Shown: positions 11,074 through 18,662 of the stretch, piece by piece
Layout: every line of letters starts with the position of its first letter
Position numbering within the stretch: position 1 is the first letter of the stretch
Source: Alistipes muris
GTDB taxonomy: Bacteria; Bacteroidota; Bacteroidia; Bacteroidales; Rikenellaceae
Assembly (NCBI RefSeq): GCF_943193205.1
Contig: NZ_CALPDD010000005.1
Span: 1-64,000 of the forward strand
Direction: 5' to 3'
Length of the DNA stretch: 64,000 bases
Notes under the pieces: generated by a model
Databases searched by the model: none
What the model saw: only the letters and a program-made list of their open reading frames with translations
Told to the model about the DNA's origin: nothing
Program-made: the position numbers and the translations under genes

Positions 11074-11148
11074 CGGGGCGTAGCTCAGTCCGGTTAGAGT
11101 ACACGTCTGGGGGGCGTGTGGTCGCTGGTTCGAATCCAGTCACCCCGA
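11074..11148 (+). tRNA. tRNA-Pro (anticodon GGG)
   Basis: Cloverleaf: D stem GCTC/GAGT, anticodon stem CACGT/GCGTG around loop CTGGGGG (anticodon GGG), T arm GCTGG-TTCGAAT-CCAGT, discriminator A, no encoded CCA. The acceptor stem CGGGGCG/CACCCCG has one C-A mismatch at its sixth pair. The T arm and 3' acceptor strand adjoin island 1, so the 3' end may have been replaced by element-derived sequence. Confidence 0.9.
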
Positions 11149-11155
11149 CAACAGA

Positions 11156-11198
11156 AAAAGCACTGATAATCCAACGGTTATCGGTGCTTTTCTTTTTT
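11156..11198 (+). terminator. Intrinsic terminator after tRNA-Pro
   Basis: AAAAGCACTGATAA pairs with TTATCGGTGCTTTT (one G-T pair) and is followed by CTTTTTT. It lies 8 nt past the tRNA. Confidence 0.85.
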
Positions 11199-11221: not shown

Positions 11222-11267
11222 GGTTGACGCCACGGTTGACGCGAAAAAGTCAACCAAGAAGTCAACC
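11222..11267. promoter_or_regulatory. Symmetric four-site GGTTGAC array before the integrase
   Basis: GGTTGAC occurs at 11222 and 11234, and its complement GTCAACC at 11249 and 11261. The repeats are 12 bp apart within each pair and the pairs face each other about a centre near 11244. The array ends 7 bp before the integrase ATG. It is likely a binding site for a DNA-binding protein (integrase arm sites, excisionase or repressor); which is not known. Confidence 0.6.
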
Positions 11268-11274
11268 GAATCCG

Positions 11275-12495
11275 ATGAAAACATCCGTTTCCGTCGTTTG
11301 TTACAGGTACAAGGTACTTGCAAACGGAGAATCTCCGCTGATGCTCCGCATTTCCAAAGAGGGCCGCCGCACGATGAAAAGTCTGGGCGTGTCGGTCGAT
11401 CCCAAATTCTGGAATTTCGACACCAACCAACCCAAGCCCAATTGTCCGAATCGGGCGTTGATTCGTCAAATCGTACTGAAATACGAAACCGAATACAACG
11501 GCAAGATTCTGACGAAAGAGATCAACGAAGAAGAATTTACCCCGCAGACGATTGTAGCCGAACAAAAGGAGCGCATCAAGGTGCAGACCGTCGAGGAAGT
11601 CTACAAAACGATTATTGCTGAGTTGAAAGAACGGGGGAGTGTCGGCACTGCCTATGCCTATCTGAACTCCTACAACGTGTTGAAATCCTTTAATCGGGAC
11701 AAACCGCTCAATTTCACGTTCAGCCGTATCGATGCCGATTATCTGGAACGATTCGAGGAGTGGATGCGGGCACGGGGGAATAAAGATACGTCGATGAGTT
11801 TTCAGATGCGCACTCTGCGGGCCGTGTTCAATCGGGCGATTAAGTCGAAAGCCGTTGCCCGCGAGAAGAACCCGTTCGCCGACTATAAGATTAGCCGATT
11901 CAACACCCGCACCCCGAAACGGGCTTTGAGCAAGGCGGATGTAATGAAAATCGTCGATGCGGATTGTACGGCGGAAAGCGATTTTTGCCGACTGGCGCAA
12001 AACGTCTTTACGTTCTCTTATTTGTGCGGGGGAATTTCATTCGTCGATGTGGCGAATCTGACACCCGATAATATCATAGACGGGCGGCTGTCGTACAAGC
12101 GCCAGAAGACACACGGGACGATCGATATTCCGCTGTCGGAAAAGGCGATGCGAATTGTAGACGGCTATGCCGAAGTCTGCGAACGGTCGGGCTATCTGTT
12201 TCCGATACTCGATTCGCGCAGGCATACGACGCCGATGCAGAAACGGAATCGGGTGCATAAAGTCTGCCACCAAGTCAATACCGAATTGCGCCGATTAGCC
12301 TGCAAGTTGAATATTTCGGGAGAGGTAACGACTTATGTTGCAAGGCATAGCTTTGCTACCGTATTGAAGAAATCGGGTGTAAATATCGGCATCATATCCG
12401 AGGCGTTGGGCCACCATAGTCTGAAAACCACACAGATTTATTTAGGGGCATTCGAGAATAGCCAAATCGGCGCGGCAATGGCCAATCTGTTATGA
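11275..12495 (+). CDS. Tyrosine recombinase, IntDOT-like (island 1 left)
   Basis: A 406-residue integrase from ATG 11275; the upstream extension would cross the GGTTGAC array. It has an N-terminal arm-binding region with GVSVDPKFW, a SAM-like core-binding domain (about 110-200) and a catalytic domain with ARHSFAT (Arg II), LGHHSLKTTQIYL (His and the Tyr nucleophile). The first catalytic Arg is replaced: the motif reads CGGISFVDV. CTnDOT integrase is known to lack that Arg, so the change fits this family and does not mean it is dead. It lies just downstream of tRNA-Pro and probably moves island 1. Confidence 0.92.
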   Translation: MKTSVSVVCYRYKVLANGESPLMLRISKEGRRTMKSLGVSVDPKFWNFDTNQPKPNCPNRALIRQIVLKYETEYNGKILTKEINEEEFTPQTIVAEQKERIKVQTVEEVYKTIIAELKERGSVGTAYAYLNSYNVLKSFNRDKPLNFTFSRIDADYLERFEEWMRARGNKDTSMSFQMRTLRAVFNRAIKSKAVAREKNPFADYKISRFNTRTPKRALSKADVMKIVDADCTAESDFCRLAQNVFTFSYLCGGISFVDVANLTPDNIIDGRLSYKRQKTHGTIDIPLSEKAMRIVDGYAEVCERSGYLFPILDSRRHTTPMQKRNRVHKVCHQVNTELRRLACKLNISGEVTTYVARHSFATVLKKSGVNIGIISEALGHHSLKTTQIYLGAFENSQIGAAMANLL

Positions 12496-12565
12496 CGAAA
12501 AATCGGACCGACTTTGTCGCGGGGTCTTAAAATAGCCCCTCTGTCAAAGTTGGTCCTACTCTTTT

Positions 12566-12607
12566 AAGGGATTATCCGTTTGCATCGGGTAGTCCCTTTT
12601 CTTTTTT
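12566..12607 (+). terminator. Intrinsic terminator after the integrase
   Basis: AAGGGATTATCCG pairs with CGGGTAGTCCCTT (G-T pairs allowed) around TTTGCAT, followed by a T-rich run. It lies 70 nt past the integrase stop. Confidence 0.75.
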
Positions 12608-12669
12608 CTGCGGTCGGTGGTTGCGGCGGAAAGCGGAATTTTGTAAATTCGTTGAAACAATTACCGCTT

Positions 12670-13602
12670 ATGACCGAACTTGCAGGCTCGAAAGGCTGTT
12701 TGGCTACCGATACCCGCTCCTTACGGGAAATCGCTCCGTTGCTGGAAAACTATTTCGGCATTACGCTGGGTTACCTTACCAATGAAATCGAATCGAGTAC
12801 AGGCAAACATGCCGCCAAAGCGATTCAAGAGGATCACAAGATATATTTGCCGACCAACCGTTTCGATTACGATGCTTATATGGAGTTGTTCGGAGAAACG
12901 CCCCTTTTGACCGACCGATTGCGGGAAGCCCTTTTATTCGTGGCTTACATCATTACTGACCGCAAATTCAACGAAGAAGATTTATACGAGCGCGGATATT
13001 GGGAAGATTGGAACACCTATAAAGGCGAATGGGCGAAACTGATGCTATTTATGGAGCATATGGAACAACGGGCATCCATTCCCGCCAAGAAAGATGAATT
13101 ATCCCCGACCTCAATCACCCTCCGAGCCGACAATGGAATTGTAGAAAAGAGTACCATCCCGAATACCGATAACTGGTTGTTCCGTCTGATCCGAAAGGAA
13201 CTCGCCGATTATTTCCCCGACATTCGGACCGCCGAGGAAGCACGGCAGGAATTGGACCGCCGCAAACCGTCGGCAGGAGCTAAGCGAATGAATGCTATCT
13301 ATACGATTATCGAGTATGGAATCTATCGAATGCTTCATGAAGAAAACGCCATCCCCGAAAAGCCCGATATACCGAACGAACTATGTGCGTTGATTCACGA
13401 CTTTACGCGACTGACAGGATGCTATCCGACCAATAAAGGATGGGACGGAAATTATAGTCCCGATTTGATTCGAGTAGGTTTGCAATATACGGGAAAAGTC
13501 GTGCGGAAGATCGGCGAAAAGCGCATACCGAAATTTCCACCAGTTAGCTTTGGAACAGTACATATTGTAACGGATAATATCGTTCGGAACGAACTTTTCT
13601 GA
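12670..13602 (+). CDS. Unknown protein of island 1, 310 residues
   Basis: I chose the ATG at 12670 (MTELAGSKGCLATD); the longer frame to 12580 starts inside the integrase terminator. The protein is soluble, mostly helical in appearance and rich in charged residues, with LRREIA-like and WLFRLIRKELADYFPDI segments. No enzyme motif, membrane helix or HTH is evident. Position directly behind the integrase suggests an element accessory or regulatory protein. A terminator follows 20 nt after the stop. I do not recognise the family. Confidence 0.75.
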   Translation: MTELAGSKGCLATDTRSLREIAPLLENYFGITLGYLTNEIESSTGKHAAKAIQEDHKIYLPTNRFDYDAYMELFGETPLLTDRLREALLFVAYIITDRKFNEEDLYERGYWEDWNTYKGEWAKLMLFMEHMEQRASIPAKKDELSPTSITLRADNGIVEKSTIPNTDNWLFRLIRKELADYFPDIRTAEEARQELDRRKPSAGAKRMNAIYTIIEYGIYRMLHEENAIPEKPDIPNELCALIHDFTRLTGCYPTNKGWDGNYSPDLIRVGLQYTGKVVRKIGEKRIPKFPPVSFGTVHIVTDNIVRNELF

Positions 13603-13623
13603 CGCTCTTATATATAAGGGTGT

Positions 13624-13650
13624 AAGGGATGCTTCACGGCGTCCCTTTTT
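13624..13650 (+). terminator. Intrinsic terminator
   Basis: AAGGGATGC pairs with GGCGTCCCTT around a short loop, followed by T residues. Just upstream, CTTATATATAAG (13607-13618) is a perfect 12-bp palindrome. Confidence 0.7.
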
Positions 13651-13675
13651 CGTGTTCGGACCGCACCCGTCTGCC

Positions 13676-13700
13676 ATGTCATGACATCGTGACATGACAT
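13676..13700. repeat. Nested palindromes ATGTCATGACAT
   Basis: ATGTCATGACAT is a perfect 12-bp palindrome, and its outer half recurs inverted 9 nt later, so the 25-bp segment has an 8-bp outer inverted repeat as well. It lies in the 320-bp gene-free gap 13603-13923, which otherwise holds two terminators. It may be an operator or an origin-type site. Confidence 0.5.
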
Positions 13701-13753
13701 ATCAACTGACAGATTTTCAGTAATTTTATGCGTTTTTGCAAGCCCTTTGACAG

Positions 13754-13779
13754 CAGACCTAATGAATAGGTCTGTTTTT
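13754..13779 (+). terminator. Terminator-like hairpin
   Basis: CAGACCTA pairs with TAGGTCTG across five bases and is followed by five T. No annotated gene ends just before it, so it may shield or attenuate the gene at 13924. Confidence 0.6.
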
Positions 13780-13923
13780 GGGGGTTATTGTCTATTTTTC
13801 AAAGTCTGCCAAAGGTGGGATTTGTGTGAGTTTTCTGTTCGCAACCGAGTTGGAAATAGAATCGACGAGGTTGTGGGAAGAAGCCGATGCCCGTAGTAAA
13901 GTAGGCATAAAATTAAAAAAACA

Positions 13924-14277
13924 ATGACTATTAAAAGTCAAATTAAACGGGCGAATCTCGCCTATTTGAAAGAAGCCGTCAAGAACGGCTACCGCATGAG
14001 CATTGTGCTTGAATATGACGGTAACTATTATTACCGAGTACGGGTGCACGAAGCGGATGCAACGGTCATGTTCCTGATGTACCTCAATGCCGAGGTTTAT
14101 GCGACGGTACAGCGAATGCTGGGTTGTCAAACGATTCTATCCGTCGCAACTGGCCGATTCAATCTTTCGCACGCCGATAGTTTAGTTGCTTTTCGCGGAA
14201 TGTCCGTGTTGAAAATGCGGATGCTCCATGCCTTGAATATCTTTTACAAGAATGTTTCACTTACCTATGCACGATAA
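13924..14277 (+). CDS. Unknown protein of island 1, 117 residues
   Basis: MTIKSQIKRANLAYLKEAVKNG starts after an A-rich stretch (AATTAAAAAAACAATG). The sequence is basic at the N terminus, with a Tyr-rich strand (YDGNYYYRVRV) and a C-terminal helix. There is no membrane segment or known motif. It converges with the 214-residue gene and overlaps its end by 21 nt, which is unusual for two real genes and hints that one end was created by recombination. Function unknown. Confidence 0.6.
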   Translation: MTIKSQIKRANLAYLKEAVKNGYRMSIVLEYDGNYYYRVRVHEADATVMFLMYLNAEVYATVQRMLGCQTILSVATGRFNLSHADSLVAFRGMSVLKMRMLHALNIFYKNVSLTYAR

Positions 14278-14901
14278 CAGAATGCTGACAGAAACCTTAA
14301 ACATCGACAAGGGGCAATGGTCGGCGGGTGTCGGGTCGAAGCCAGTGCGGCTGCGCTGGGCGGCTCGGCGTTTCTCGGCTTGGGCCAGCAATTCCGCTTC
14401 GCGCTTCTTGCGCTGCGTCTCCTCCGTCTGCCGGTGACGGGTGTAGTCGGCGATTTCGGTAACGGTAGACCGGACTTCGGTAATACGGGTCAGCAGCTCG
14501 TCCGCAGGGGTGTCTGCCGGATAACGGGCGAAAAGATACTCGAACGTCTTGTCGATGCGGCGCTGCTCCTTGGCCGAGATGGAACCGTAGGCGAGCCGAC
14601 GGTCGTACTCCTGCTTTTTGCCGGCGATGTATCGCCGCGCTTCGGCGGTGGATAGGTTGCGATGTTCGATTTCGCACTCCATGTAGTGCAGCGAAAAACG
14701 GTTGTCCTTGAACATTTCGGCAGCGAATGCCAGCCAGCTTACCACGCTGACCGCTCCGTACAGCACCCATGCGACCGCCTGCCATACATCGCCGAGCCAT
14801 CGGCTCTTGGCATTTAATCGGGTGCGAATAGCTTGCAACCGCTCGCGGATTTTGCGGTTGGTGCGTCGGTGCGACATGCGTATGTATTCGATGTGGGTCA
14901 T
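14257..14901 (-). CDS. Unknown single-helix membrane protein coupled to RhuM gene
   Basis: A 214-residue protein, MTHIEYIRMSHRRTNRKI, with a basic N terminus, one hydrophobic segment (AWVLYGAVSVVSWLAFAA, about 43-60) and then a long charged coiled-coil-like region (AEARRYIAGKKQEYDRRL to KKREAELLAQAEKRRAAQR). Its ATG overlaps the RhuM gene stop by 4 nt, so translation is probably coupled and the two proteins may act together. The C-terminal 25 residues overlap the opposite gene. I do not recognise the family. Confidence 0.65.
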   Translation of the reverse strand: MTHIEYIRMSHRRTNRKIRERLQAIRTRLNAKSRWLGDVWQAVAWVLYGAVSVVSWLAFAAEMFKDNRFSLHYMECEIEHRNLSTAEARRYIAGKKQEYDRRLAYGSISAKEQRRIDKTFEYLFARYPADTPADELLTRITEVRSTVTEIADYTRHRQTEETQRKKREAELLAQAEKRRAAQRSRTGFDPTPADHCPLSMFKVSVSILLSCIGK

Positions 14902-15893
14902 GGCTGTTTCTTGGCAGCTGCTTGCAGGTCGGCTTCGAGTTCGGCAAGACTTGCGCGGCGCTCCTCTTCACGTAAACGACCCTTGTAGGCATCGAGTTGT
15001 TGAGCTGCGATGCTTTCAGCTACCTTGTGGCTGATTTGCCCGGCATGTTCGAGCAGTTCGCGCCCGTTGATGACCAGAATATCGTTCAGCTTCTTGATCC
15101 AGTCGGCCATATACATGGGTATCTGCCGCCGCGCCTGACTTTCGGCGAAGGCGAGGTATTGTTCGACCAGCAGTCCGAGGTCTTTCATTTCGTCTTCGGT
15201 CAGGTAGTTCTTGGCGGTTGCGGCATCGGCTTTGGTAATGCGCCGCGGGTCGCTTTTGTCGCAGGAGGTCATGCCCATCATCGGCAGGCGGGCATCGGCG
15301 CGGCGGGCGACCAGTTCGGCGGCTGTCTGGCTGCTGATGGCCCACAGCAGTTTGTTCTGCACGATTTTGAAAAACTCGACCGTCTTTTCGGCTTTCGGGT
15401 CGTAGTCGATGCTCGTCGTGTAGATGTCCTTGACCTTTTGGTAGAACACCCGTTCCGAAAGGCGGATTTCGCGGATGCGCTCCTGCAACTCGTCGAAATA
15501 GTTCATCGACTTGCCCGACTTCATCCGTTCGTCGTTCAGCGCGAAGCCCTTGATGAGGTACTCGCGCAGCACCTGCGTCGCCCAGATGCGGAACTGCGTG
15601 CCTTGATGCGATTTCACGCGGTAGCCGACCGAAATAATCACGTCGAGGTTGTAGTAGTTCGTGTCGTAGCTTTTGCCGTCGGCGGCAGTTGTTGCAAAAT
15701 TTGCAACAACTGAATTCTCGCTCAACTCGTGCTCCTCGAAAATGTTCTTCAAGTGGCGCGAAATCACGGATTTGTCTCTGTCGAACAGCGTTGCCATCTG
15801 GCCTTGGGTCAGCCAGACGGTCTCCTCGCCCATGCGGACGTCGATTTTGATGCTCCCGTCGGCCGAGCGGTATATCAGCATTTCGTTCTCCAT
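14898..15893 (-). CDS. RhuM-family (virulence RhuM) protein
   Basis: The 331-residue protein matches the RhuM pattern: an N-terminal DNA-binding-like domain with WLTQGQMATLFDRDKSVISRHLKNIFEE (about 28-55), DTNYYNLDVIISVGYRVKSHQGTQFRIWAT (about 78-107), and a helical C terminus with a charged tail. RhuM proteins were first noted on a Salmonella pathogenicity island and are scattered on mobile elements; their biochemical role is unclear. Here it is coupled to an unknown membrane protein and lies between that gene and the second recombinase, so it is probably cargo or a regulator of the element. Confidence 0.9.
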   Translation of the reverse strand: MENEMLIYRSADGSIKIDVRMGEETVWLTQGQMATLFDRDKSVISRHLKNIFEEHELSENSVVANFATTAADGKSYDTNYYNLDVIISVGYRVKSHQGTQFRIWATQVLREYLIKGFALNDERMKSGKSMNYFDELQERIREIRLSERVFYQKVKDIYTTSIDYDPKAEKTVEFFKIVQNKLLWAISSQTAAELVARRADARLPMMGMTSCDKSDPRRITKADAATAKNYLTEDEMKDLGLLVEQYLAFAESQARRQIPMYMADWIKKLNDILVINGRELLEHAGQISHKVAESIAAQQLDAYKGRLREEERRASLAELEADLQAAAKKQP

Positions 15894-15906
15894 AGCATAA
15901 AGATAG

Positions 15907-17031
15907 TTATAATTCCGGAATCCGGTTTACTGCTTCACGCTTCTTCGCATCCATAATCTGCGCATAGACCTGCGTCGTTTTCAGTTCGCGGTGGCCGAGG
16001 AGCTTCGACACGGTGTAGATTTCCGTGCCGAGCGAGAGTTGCAGCACGGCGAACGTGTGCCGTCCGCAGTGGAACGTAATGTGTTTCGTAATGCCCGCTT
16101 TCAGACACCACTCGCGCAGAGCGAGGTTGTGCCATGCGGAGTATTTCAGTCCGGCGAAGACCCGCTCGTCGGCCTTGCCGCGCTGGCCCATGTAGCGCAC
16201 GGCTTGGCCGGTAATGTCGAGGTATTCCAGCCCTTTGGTCTTTTTCTGCCGGAAGACGATGCGAGTACCGCCGTCGAACTCCTGCACCTCGGCCCACGTC
16301 AGTTTGTTGATGTCGCTCCAGCGCATGCCGGTCAGGCACGAGAAGAGGAACGCGTCTTTCAGTACGGGATACGGACACGCCGTTTTGGCGAGGCGCTGCA
16401 ACTCGTCGAAAGTCAGGTATTCGCGATGCACGTCCTCGACATGCGCGGGTTTGACCGACATGGCGGGCGAGTGGGGGATGATGCCGTCCTCGACCGCTTG
16501 GTTCAGCGCGGCTTTGAGTTTGAGGAAATAGCTGCTCTGGCTGTTCGTCGAAAGAGCTGTGCCGCTTTTGGTCTTGGCCTGCTTCGCCAGATAGGTCTTG
16601 AACCCCTCGACGAACTTTTTATCGACCATCTCGAACGTCGTATTCGTTCCGGCGTAGGCGATGAGGTGTTTCAGTGCGCTGTCCCAGTTGCCCCAGTTCC
16701 CCGGCGACTCCTTGCGCTGTTCGATCAGTCCCTTGATGTATTCGACGAGGTTGGTGCGAATTTTATATTTTACGGCGAAGCCATATTGCTCGTTCTGTTC
16801 GGCGAGCAGTCGTTTGGCCTTGACCTTCTCGGCCATTTCGAGGTTGACCTTGTTGTGGTCGCGCTCCAATTTGTTTTTCGGGTCGGTGTAGAGGTAGTAT
16901 TCGAGAGTCTCGAATTTACGGCGATGCTTGATGCGCCCTTCATCGTCGCGGGTGTACCCGTAATAGTATTCCAGCACCAACGAGGTCTTGCCCGTCGAGC
17001 GCTGCGGTTTCTGTCGAATCTTAATTTCCAT
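15907..17031 (-). CDS. Tyrosine recombinase with full catalytic set (island 1 right)
   Basis: A 374-residue recombinase. The N-terminal arm domain (MEIKIRQKPQRSTGKTSL to about 100) and SAM-like core-binding domain precede a catalytic domain with TGMRWSDI (Arg I), a Lys in RQKKTKG, HCGRHTFA (HxxR), LGHRELK (His) and TTQVYAQI (Tyr nucleophile). Unlike the recombinases at 11275 and 44552 it keeps the first Arg, so it belongs to another branch. It reads inwards from the right edge, 14 nt upstream of the RhuM gene. It may be the integrase of a separate small element. Confidence 0.93.
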   Translation of the reverse strand: MEIKIRQKPQRSTGKTSLVLEYYYGYTRDDEGRIKHRRKFETLEYYLYTDPKNKLERDHNKVNLEMAEKVKAKRLLAEQNEQYGFAVKYKIRTNLVEYIKGLIEQRKESPGNWGNWDSALKHLIAYAGTNTTFEMVDKKFVEGFKTYLAKQAKTKSGTALSTNSQSSYFLKLKAALNQAVEDGIIPHSPAMSVKPAHVEDVHREYLTFDELQRLAKTACPYPVLKDAFLFSCLTGMRWSDINKLTWAEVQEFDGGTRIVFRQKKTKGLEYLDITGQAVRYMGQRGKADERVFAGLKYSAWHNLALREWCLKAGITKHITFHCGRHTFAVLQLSLGTEIYTVSKLLGHRELKTTQVYAQIMDAKKREAVNRIPEL

Positions 17032-17058
17032 GCGGTCGAGGTTTTAGGTTCAATTTTT

Positions 17059-17121
17059 TGCAGGTTTTCTCCCTCGGCATAGCACGAACTGCGTTCGGCT
17101 CTGCGCTCGGCTTATCGAAAA
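17059..17121 (-). repeat. Dispersed intergenic repeat, copy A
   Basis: On the minus strand this starts TTTTCGATAAGCCG, continues with AGAGCCGA and TGCCGAGG, and ends near CTGCA. The segment 24940-25002 has the same order of blocks on the plus strand. It lies in the leader between a promoter box and the recombinase start. Confidence 0.6.
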
Positions 17122-17130
17122 CGTGCCGTG

Positions 17131-17138
17131 CAAAGATA
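17131..17138 (-). promoter_or_regulatory. Promoter -7 box TATCTTTG for the right recombinase
   Basis: TATCTTTG on the minus strand matches TAnnTTTG and lies 99 nt upstream of the ATG at 17031. The leader contains the dispersed repeat. Further right, TTTACACCTCGA occurs twice (17159-17170 and 17200-17211). Confidence 0.55.
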
Positions 17139-17238
17139 GAAAAATTTCTTTACACTTTTTTACACCTCGATTACTATGTGTTGTAAATAAGCGGCAAGTT
17201 TTACACCTCGAACGATAAAATGAAGTCGAAATAAAAGT

Positions 17239-17262
17239 CAGTTATTTGTTTATAAATAACTG
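17239..17262 (-). terminator. AT-rich inverted repeat after mnmE
   Basis: CAGTTATTT and AAATAACTG form a perfect 9-bp inverted repeat around GTTTAT. It lies 47 nt past the mnmE stop; the stem is AT-rich and no good T run follows on the minus strand, so it may instead be a protein-binding site at the island border. Confidence 0.4.
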
Positions 17263-17309
17263 AATATATGAATTTTATTTCGATATTTATTCGTATTTGT
17301 TTTATTGGG

Positions 17310-18662
17310 TTACTTTCCGATGCAGAACTTAGAGAAGATGTTGGAGAGGATGTTGTCGGGGATGATGGCGCCGATGCCGGTGATGGACGAGAGGGCGCGG
17401 ATGACGGATCGGATTTCCTCGGCGAGGAGGTCGGAGGGGAGAGCGGATTGGAGCCCGAGGAGGGCGCGGTCGAGAGCGGCTGAAGCCTCGCTGAGAGCTT
17501 GGAAATGGCGGCTGTTGGAAACGACGGTATCGCCGTGGAAAAGCCCCTCGGTGTCGACGGCGCTGCGGAGCGCGCGGCATAACATGTCGGCCCCGGAGCC
17601 GCTGAGGGCGGAAATGCCGATAACGTTGTCGGGCAGAACGAGCGTCGGAGCGGCGTCGGTTTTGTTGATGACGGTGAGGAGGGTCTGGTCTTCGCGGAGC
17701 GGGAAATCGGGGGCGGGAATCGCCCCTTTAATGGTAGTTGCGTCGATCAGATGGATGACGATACGGGCTCGGGCGATGCTTGCGAGAGTGCGTTCGATGC
17801 CCATCTGTTCGAGCCGGTCGTCGGTGGTGCGGATGCCTGCCGTGTCGAGGAACCGGAACACCACGCCGTCGATGTTGGCCTGCTCCTCGATGACGTCGCG
17901 CGTGGTGCCTGCGATGTCGGAGACCAGCGCCCGGTCGTCGTGCAGCAGTCGGTTCAGCAGGGTGGATTTGCCTGCGTTGGGCGCTCCGGCGATGGCCACG
18001 GCGACCCCCTCTTTGAGGGCGTTGCCGAGCGAGAACGAATTGCGCAGCGTGTCGGTTTCGCGGCGGATGCTTTCCATCGTTCGGCGCAGTTCTTCGCGGT
18101 CGGCGAATTCGACGTCTTCTTCCGAAAAATCCAGCTCCAGCTCCAACAGCGACGCGAGGTCGAGCAATTTTTGGCGCAGGCCTTCGAGGGCGGCGGAGTA
18201 GCCGCCGCGCATCTGTCCGGTGGCGAGTGCATGGGCTGCACGCGACGAGGAGGCGATGAGGTCGGCGACCGCTTCGGCCTGCGACAAATCGAGTTTTCCG
18301 GCCAGGTAGGCGCGGATGGTGAACTCGCCGGGCTCGGCCATGCGGGCTCCGGCAGCTTGTGCGAGCCGCAGGATTTCGGAGACGATGTAGGCGGAGCCGT
18401 GGCAGGAAATTTCGACCGAATCCTCCCCGGTGTAGGAATGCGGCGCGCGGAAGACGGTAGCGAGCACGTCGTCGATGGTCCGTTCGCCGTCCATGATGCG
18501 TCCGTAGTGGACGGTGTAGCCCTGGGCTTGGGAAAGGGGAGCGGTTCCCCGGAACAGCCGGTCGCAGAGCGTCAGTGCATCGGGGCCGCTGAACCGGACG
18601 ACGGCGATGGCTCCGCCCGCCGCGGTGGCCGGGGCGACGATGGTGGGCTCCCCGCGTGTCAT
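17310..18662 (-). CDS. mnmE: tRNA uridine-5-carboxymethylaminomethyl GTPase
   Basis: MnmE, with MnmG, modifies the wobble uridine of several tRNAs. The 450-residue protein has the N-terminal folate-binding domain (APATAAGGAIAVVRFSG, then YTGEDSVEISCHG), the G domain with P loop GAPNAGKSTLLN (about 222-233), DTAG switch, NKTD specificity motif, and the C-terminal FCIGK whose Cys is the family hallmark. It is the last gene of the parA-parB-DUF5683-transglycosylase-mnmE cluster, 2 nt after the transglycosylase gene. Confidence 0.97.
   Translation of the reverse strand: MTRGEPTIVAPATAAGGAIAVVRFSGPDALTLCDRLFRGTAPLSQAQGYTVHYGRIMDGERTIDDVLATVFRAPHSYTGEDSVEISCHGSAYIVSEILRLAQAAGARMAEPGEFTIRAYLAGKLDLSQAEAVADLIASSSRAAHALATGQMRGGYSAALEGLRQKLLDLASLLELELDFSEEDVEFADREELRRTMESIRRETDTLRNSFSLGNALKEGVAVAIAGAPNAGKSTLLNRLLHDDRALVSDIAGTTRDVIEEQANIDGVVFRFLDTAGIRTTDDRLEQMGIERTLASIARARIVIHLIDATTIKGAIPAPDFPLREDQTLLTVINKTDAAPTLVLPDNVIGISALSGSGADMLCRALRSAVDTEGLFHGDTVVSNSRHFQALSEASAALDRALLGLQSALPSDLLAEEIRSVIRALSSITGIGAIIPDNILSNIFSKFCIGK

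Follow-up and report, generated by a model that had tools for sequence, protein, structure and literature searches.

The window, the whole stretch of DNA analysed here, comprises 64,000 nucleotides of Alistipes muris contig NZ_CALPDD010000005.1 (positions 1 to 64,000 of the forward strand). In it a tRNA-Pro(ggg) gene is followed by a terminator-like hairpin, an array of short repeats and a gene (int) for a tyrosine integrase (Table 1). The integrase is intact, with 406 residues and arm-binding, SAM-like and catalytic domains; the Pfam matches are PF17293 (Arm-DNA-bind_5) at residues 7-93 (2.1e-17), PF13102 (SAM_5) at residues 108-206 and PF00589 (Phage_integrase) at residues 253-391. Judged by this domain order, the protein is a member of the Arm-DNA-bind_5/IntCTnDOT subgroup of tyrosine integrases. 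The AF2 model of the arm domain (pLDDT 94) has strands at residues 4-9, 20-28 and 31-41 and a helix at 60-83. A Foldseek search with this model gave no match at E<=0.001, the arm-binding domains 3jtz and 3rmp appearing only at E 2-3, and a second fold comparison of the domain returned nothing significant (best VIA Z 4.3, unrelated entries).

Table 1. Positions of the tRNA, the repeat array and the integrase gene in the window.
Feature	Position	Strand	Basis
tRNA-Pro(ggg), integration target; its 3' part is the attachment core	11074..11149	+	ARAGORN; 58-bp exact repeat
Terminator-like hairpin and T run, element-side, between tRNA and array	11156..11197	+	sequence reading
Opposed pair of putative arm-type sites, GGTTGAC twice, 12-bp step	11222..11240	-	sequence; opposed pair in 24/69 loci
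Direct pair of putative arm-type sites, AAGTCAACC twice, 12-bp step	11247..11267	+	family-wide feature, 74/78 loci
Tyrosine integrase; code residues Tyr12, Ser27, Gly30, Arg32	11275..12495	+	Pfam; alignment

A preliminary description of this DNA reported four copies of one 7-mer, two in each orientation, with 12-bp steps inside each pair, and this geometry is confirmed: GGTTGAC stands at 11222-11228 and 11234-11240, GTCAACC at 11249-11255 and 11261-11267, and the gap at the centre is 8 bp. The reported spacing of 7 bp between the array and the ATG at 11275 is likewise correct, and the distance to the tRNA end, given there as about 75 bp, is 72 bp. In the direct pair the repeat in fact extends to nine letters, AAGTCAACC, at 11247-11255 and 11259-11267; the opposed copies, on their own strand, read GCGTCAACC. 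Could a common 7-mer have clustered here by chance? A lone GGTTGAC does occur at background frequency in the window (6 observed, 7.1 expected). Two copies no more than 20 bp apart, however, were observed twice against 0.02 expected, a count reached in 0/100 shuffles, and the spaced pattern is kept across genera; these close-pair shuffles and the 74 of 78 homologues described below rule chance out. A genome of the same genus (G060) keeps the quartet with one letter change, and a decayed integrase remnant at a tRNA-Pro (L068 3100-3160, G019) has retained it with two.

Direct pairs in related loci and at element ends

Most of 19 integrase loci printed upstream of the start codon, the window's included, show direct repeats about 12 bp apart, and the sequence of the repeat varies between integrases. 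The homologue set comprised 80 loci (43-99% identity, near-duplicates included), 78 of them with at least 60 bp upstream. A perfect 8-base direct repeat at step 12 lies just upstream of the integrase in 74 of these 78, so that in the comparison with relatives suggested by the preliminary description the array is not missing. All other steps from 8 to 30 were found in at most five loci each, the five being for step 24, as expected of triplets; the background for step 12 was 0.5 in dinucleotide shuffles, 0-2 of 73 in control windows and 0/79 inside int. The direct pair of the family usually ends about 0-20 bp upstream of the start codon. A same-strand tRNA lies within 450 bp in 65 of 79 loci, with its end mostly 90-140 bp ahead of the start codon, and the tRNAs used by the examined loci are Pro, Gly, Arg, Val, Phe, Thr or Ser; hairpins resembling that of the window also follow the tRNA in the homologous loci printed. 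Among 40 distant integrases, searched from -250 to +60, just seven have any step-12 repeat, indicating that the pair is a trait of this clade, and we make no phylum-wide claim.

The dyad symmetry emphasized in the preliminary description is present in the window but is not a general feature of the family, as an opposed pair (up to 3/14 mismatches, central gap 7-10 bp) was found in about a third of the homologous loci (24/69, against 1.5% of shuffles). The inverted repeat in the int leader might instead act as RNA, folding into a hairpin that limits translation. The predicted fold of the leader is indeed stable (-25.2 kcal/mol, z -6.0; equal stability in 0/200 shuffles), and across 19 quartet sequences 94% of cells are paired, with nine double changes. 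Opposed sites for any one protein, however, would co-vary likewise, and pairing is lost in 16 of 266 cells, among them the same centre pair in the two stems of L130-L132. Moreover, the opposed pair occurs in just 24 of 69 loci while the direct pair is in nearly all, and the far-end copies described below lie outside the leader. A hairpin is thus rejected as the general function, the stem not being conserved in the family, and we hold an RNA role of the quartet to be very improbable; the hairpin may be a mere by-product of opposed sites, with some side role possible.

Most of the elements examined carry the unit at both ends. In G060, whose integrase is 99% identical to that of the window, a 58-bp exact copy of window positions 11094-11151 lies at the other end of the element, on another contig; about 90 bp inside this core repeat stands ATCAACC-GAGAA-GTCAACC, and the DNA beyond is syntenic with the window from 17309 onward. 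In eight named genomes tested, the tRNA end is repeated 7-21 kb away, and the elements are flanked at both ends. Nine whole elements were scanned, each for the unit of its own integrase. In eight of them the best-matching direct pairs fell at the two ends and nowhere else, some 85-110 bp from the cores; an opposed pair, if there is one, is closer to the left core by about 25 bp. Units swapped between elements were never equally good (0/20000). The ninth element (Pvul_b, the second Phocaeicola vulgatus element, with a different integrase) did not show the both-end pattern. The window thus has short repeats close to int on the element side of attL (11222-11267), and in relatives the repeats recur on the element side of attR (8/9 elements and G060).

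In P. vulgatus ATCC 8482 (L191, record 4018100-4035400), a second element immediately follows the first, at the same tRNA-Pro(tgg) end, with AACTTATCC twice at an 11-bp step on its left end and once on its right end. A complete related element of 8.5 kb (L186 2516-5785) encodes a DUF3871 protein and another protein that is weakly DEAD-like. At another locus (L070 3190-3750, G031), pieces of the tRNA-Pro 3' end recur in the 0.5 kb or so behind the tRNA and resemble scars left by earlier insertions.

Arm-domain residues and the letters of the unit

The unit has the consensus N N G/T T N A A C C (p-1 to p7), in which p2 and p4-p7 are nearly invariant; the constancy of AACC is partly a matter of selection, because AACC served as the anchor. 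In a first code set of 57 non-redundant loci with units anchored in this way, residue 12 of the integrase is aromatic or His with GTCAACC (14/14) and Ser with GTAAACC (24/25) and TTAAACC (12/12), and within these three unit classes Arg at residue 32 accompanies a first G and other residues a first T. A larger code set was drawn from 122 loci, 105 of which have a relaxed pair, 103 with sufficient protein length and 95 below 95% identity. In these 95 loci, Arg32 occurs with G in both units 55 times, with A/G once and with T twice, and any other residue 32 occurs with T in both units 35 times and with a mixed pair twice; residue 12 agrees with p3 as C for aromatic residues or His (19/19), A for Ser (70/71), G for Asn (2/2) and T for Gly (1/1). 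A scan of all alignment columns returned residue 30 as the top residue for p-1, residue 32 for p0 and p1, and residue 12 for p3. Similarity over the whole domain is weakly related to similarity of the units (Mantel rho 0.12).

These correspondences suggest a rule in which Gly30 goes with A and Arg or Lys30 with G at p-1; Lys32 with G, and more weakly Ala or Thr at residue 27 with A or T, at p0; Arg32 with G and any other residue 32 with T at p1; and residue 12 with C (aromatic or His), A (Ser), G (Asn) or T (Gly) at p3. The window fits this rule, its integrase having Tyr12, Gly30 and Arg32 and its direct units reading AAGTCAACC. The rule is limited to units ending in AACC, and no such pair exists in 17 of the 122 loci or in 16 of 29 loci of the second held-out set described below. 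The cleanest case of a residue-base switch is L156 and L157: W12S and R32K are among the 15 residue differences between these integrases, and the units change from GTCAACC to TTAAACC at both ends. In the AF2 model, residues 27, 30 and 32 lie at the hairpin of strands 2 and 3 and residue 12 in the loop past strand 1; all four would presumably face the DNA.

Shared ancestry was taken into account by an independent-pairs test on a tree built without the arm domain. On this tree residue 32 and p1 each change 22 times, and residue 12 and p3 each 15 times. Residue 32 and p1 yielded 14 independent pairs (mean 13.5 in the same direction, none opposite, p=1.2e-4), residue 30 and p-1 13 pairs (12 same, 0 opposite, p=4.9e-4), residue 12 and p3 ten pairs, all of which agree (p=0.002), and Lys32 and p0 agreement in 8.9 of 9 pairs (p=0.004); residue 27 and p0 agree in 4/4 pairs, a count too small for a test. 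Five off-target pairings of residue and position on the same tree showed no association (p=0.18-1).

The rules were also applied to held-out integrases. For a first set of 42 new non-redundant integrases (of 60 taken), 20 with a strictly anchored pair, the rules for residues 12 and 32 were fixed beforehand. Position p1 was correct in 16 of 18 predicted loci, G and T being about equally common, and p3 in 19 of 19, a result of small power because most loci have Ser and nearly all have A; the exceptions were one unit of L265, and L307. All four rules were then applied to a second set, 29 further integrases out of 54 taken. An AACC pair is present in 13 of the 29, and the units were correct in 24/26 cases at p1, 25/26 at p-1, 24/24 at p0 and 23/26 at p3. 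Here p1 is the informative position, since one letter dominates each of the others; the exceptions were L311 and one unit of L340. This second set includes six integrases from outside the order (L310-L314 and L316): L313 and L316 obey the rules for p1 and p3, L311 breaks both, and three have no AACC pair.

The same data bear on the idea that the repeats are sites for a separate Xis-like excision protein and not for the integrase. In known systems, sites of this kind are often neighbours of arm sites. In many independent lineages, however, the letters of the unit change along with residues 12, 30 and 32 of the integrase, and the units of L156 and L157 switch with few other changes in the integrase; a separate excision protein as the sole reader thus seems highly improbable.

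We consider it moderately probable that the arm-binding domain carries a modular, nearly one-residue-one-base code (residue 30 for p-1, residues 32 and 27 for p0, residue 32 for p1 and residue 12 for p3), and that elements have rewritten it repeatedly by altering a few residues along with every arm site at both ends. Arm specificity would then be separate from the tRNA target and may keep elements at the same tRNA from recombining each other. Apart from a comparison over a few phages in the accessible part of PMC3203893, we found no published residue-base code in the open-access library searched.

Role of the array and known systems

We propose, with a probability of about 0.92, that the array is the attL set of arm-type sites for the adjacent integrase, on which the protein docks by tandem units whose letters are set by a few of its residues. 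This reading was one of those offered by the preliminary description, and it is now strongly supported by the 74 of 78 homologues, by the same unit at the far end and by unit letters that follow residues of the arm domain. Binding of the units by Int is predicted from a proxy, their co-variation with residues 12, 30 and 32. In the proposed mechanism, the N-terminal arm-binding domain would dock on tandem 9-bp units one 12-bp step apart, flanking the tRNA-derived core at about 60-110 bp on both sides; the other domains would act at the core, by analogy with lambda-type recombination, and the protein is predicted to bridge from the arm sites to the core.

The preliminary description also offered an operator, with a putative part for the array in directionality control and integrase regulation. 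In its strict form the quartet would be mainly an operator of int, bound by Int or by an excision factor and dispensable for recombination. The sites occupy -53 to -8 before the ATG, and the usual position of the pair in the family is similarly close to the start. There is also a precedent in KplE1 IntS, where attL overlaps the int promoter and autoregulation occurs (PMC2951348, in part). An operator alone is insufficient, however, as the unit pair also stands at the far end, thousands of bases from int, in eight of nine elements, and the unit letters track the integrase's own arm domain. We judge this strict form unlikely. An additional operator role is plausible and compatible with the arm-site reading, because the 60 bp leading up to the start codon are filled by the sites and because autoregulation and an overlap of attL with the int promoter are known for tRNA-linked integrases; with the sites so close to its start codon, int may plausibly be repressed by Int.

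As arm-type sites in a well-defined arrangement, the feature itself is of an ordinary kind, and its interest lies in the residue-base rule. In lambda, tandem short P and P' arm sites, at a step of roughly 10 bp, flank the core and are read by the small N-terminal domain of the integrase. The putative sites of the present family are likewise tandem and placed on both sides of the core, with an N-terminal domain as the presumed reader, and they differ from those of lambda in sequence, in the 12-bp step, in the tRNA target and in that int is transcribed away from attL. The accessible text of PMC8138268 outlines the general role of lambda-type arm sites and states that integrases of the IntCTnDOT subgroup bind subterminal arm sites; within that subgroup, NBU1 targets the 3' end of tRNA-Leu (PMC10865867, in extract). 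The CTnDOT and NBU1 integrases share their domain order with that of the window. Compared by descriptions rather than by arm sequences, the present family differs in using Pro, Gly, Arg, Val, Phe, Thr or Ser tRNAs and in having a 12-bp tandem pair at the int start codon, with an opposed second pair in a subset.

Cluster K mycobacteriophages have arm-site pairs, some inverted, around a tRNA core, and in the part of PMC3203893 available the site letters of a few phages were set against N-terminal residues 17 and 19, which were named only as candidates for reading them; the present comparison covers 95 loci of another integrase subgroup, with tree-aware and held-out tests. KplE1 intS shares with the window the order of tRNA, attL with arm sites, and int; there the promoter lies inside attL and autoregulation was measured, an arrangement proposed for most tRNA-linked integrases (PMC2951348, in part), whereas in the window such regulation is a prediction.

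Since every integrase has arm sites of its own, such sites are difficult to locate. Should the rule hold, the integrase sequence would allow the arm sites of many Bacteroidales elements, and with them the element ends, to be predicted, and arm specificity would be changeable by a few substitutions, which could be useful for integrase-based genetic tools in gut Bacteroidales. The loci also form a natural data set on how specificity shifts in a DNA-binding domain and, in concert with it, in several of its sites.

The window copy and neighbouring DNA

In the window's genome, a search for attR with a 17-mer of the tRNA end (up to two mismatches) returned just the tRNA itself, two other tRNA-Pro copies and one weak match, and no arm pair was found between the first integrase and mnmE. 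The expected right end is missing from 12495-17310, yet synteny with G060 resumes at mnmE. Since no attR was found and three unassigned ORFs, a RhuM-family gene and a second integrase precede mnmE, the window copy may be a one-ended remnant, with integrase and array apparently intact. The RhuM-family gene (PF13310) and the second, divergent integrase, which is on the minus strand, lie at 14898-17200. Upstream of this integrase the minus strand has GGTGTAAAAAAGTGTAAAG, which may be an arm pair with a step near 10 bp. Another tRNA-linked integrase, 38-39% identical, is encoded in the same genome at L073 (G000:C6:55500-60500); there, on the minus strand at about 2945-2905, a tRNA-Thr-like sequence is accompanied by three copies of CTTCCCAT at steps of about 12 bp.
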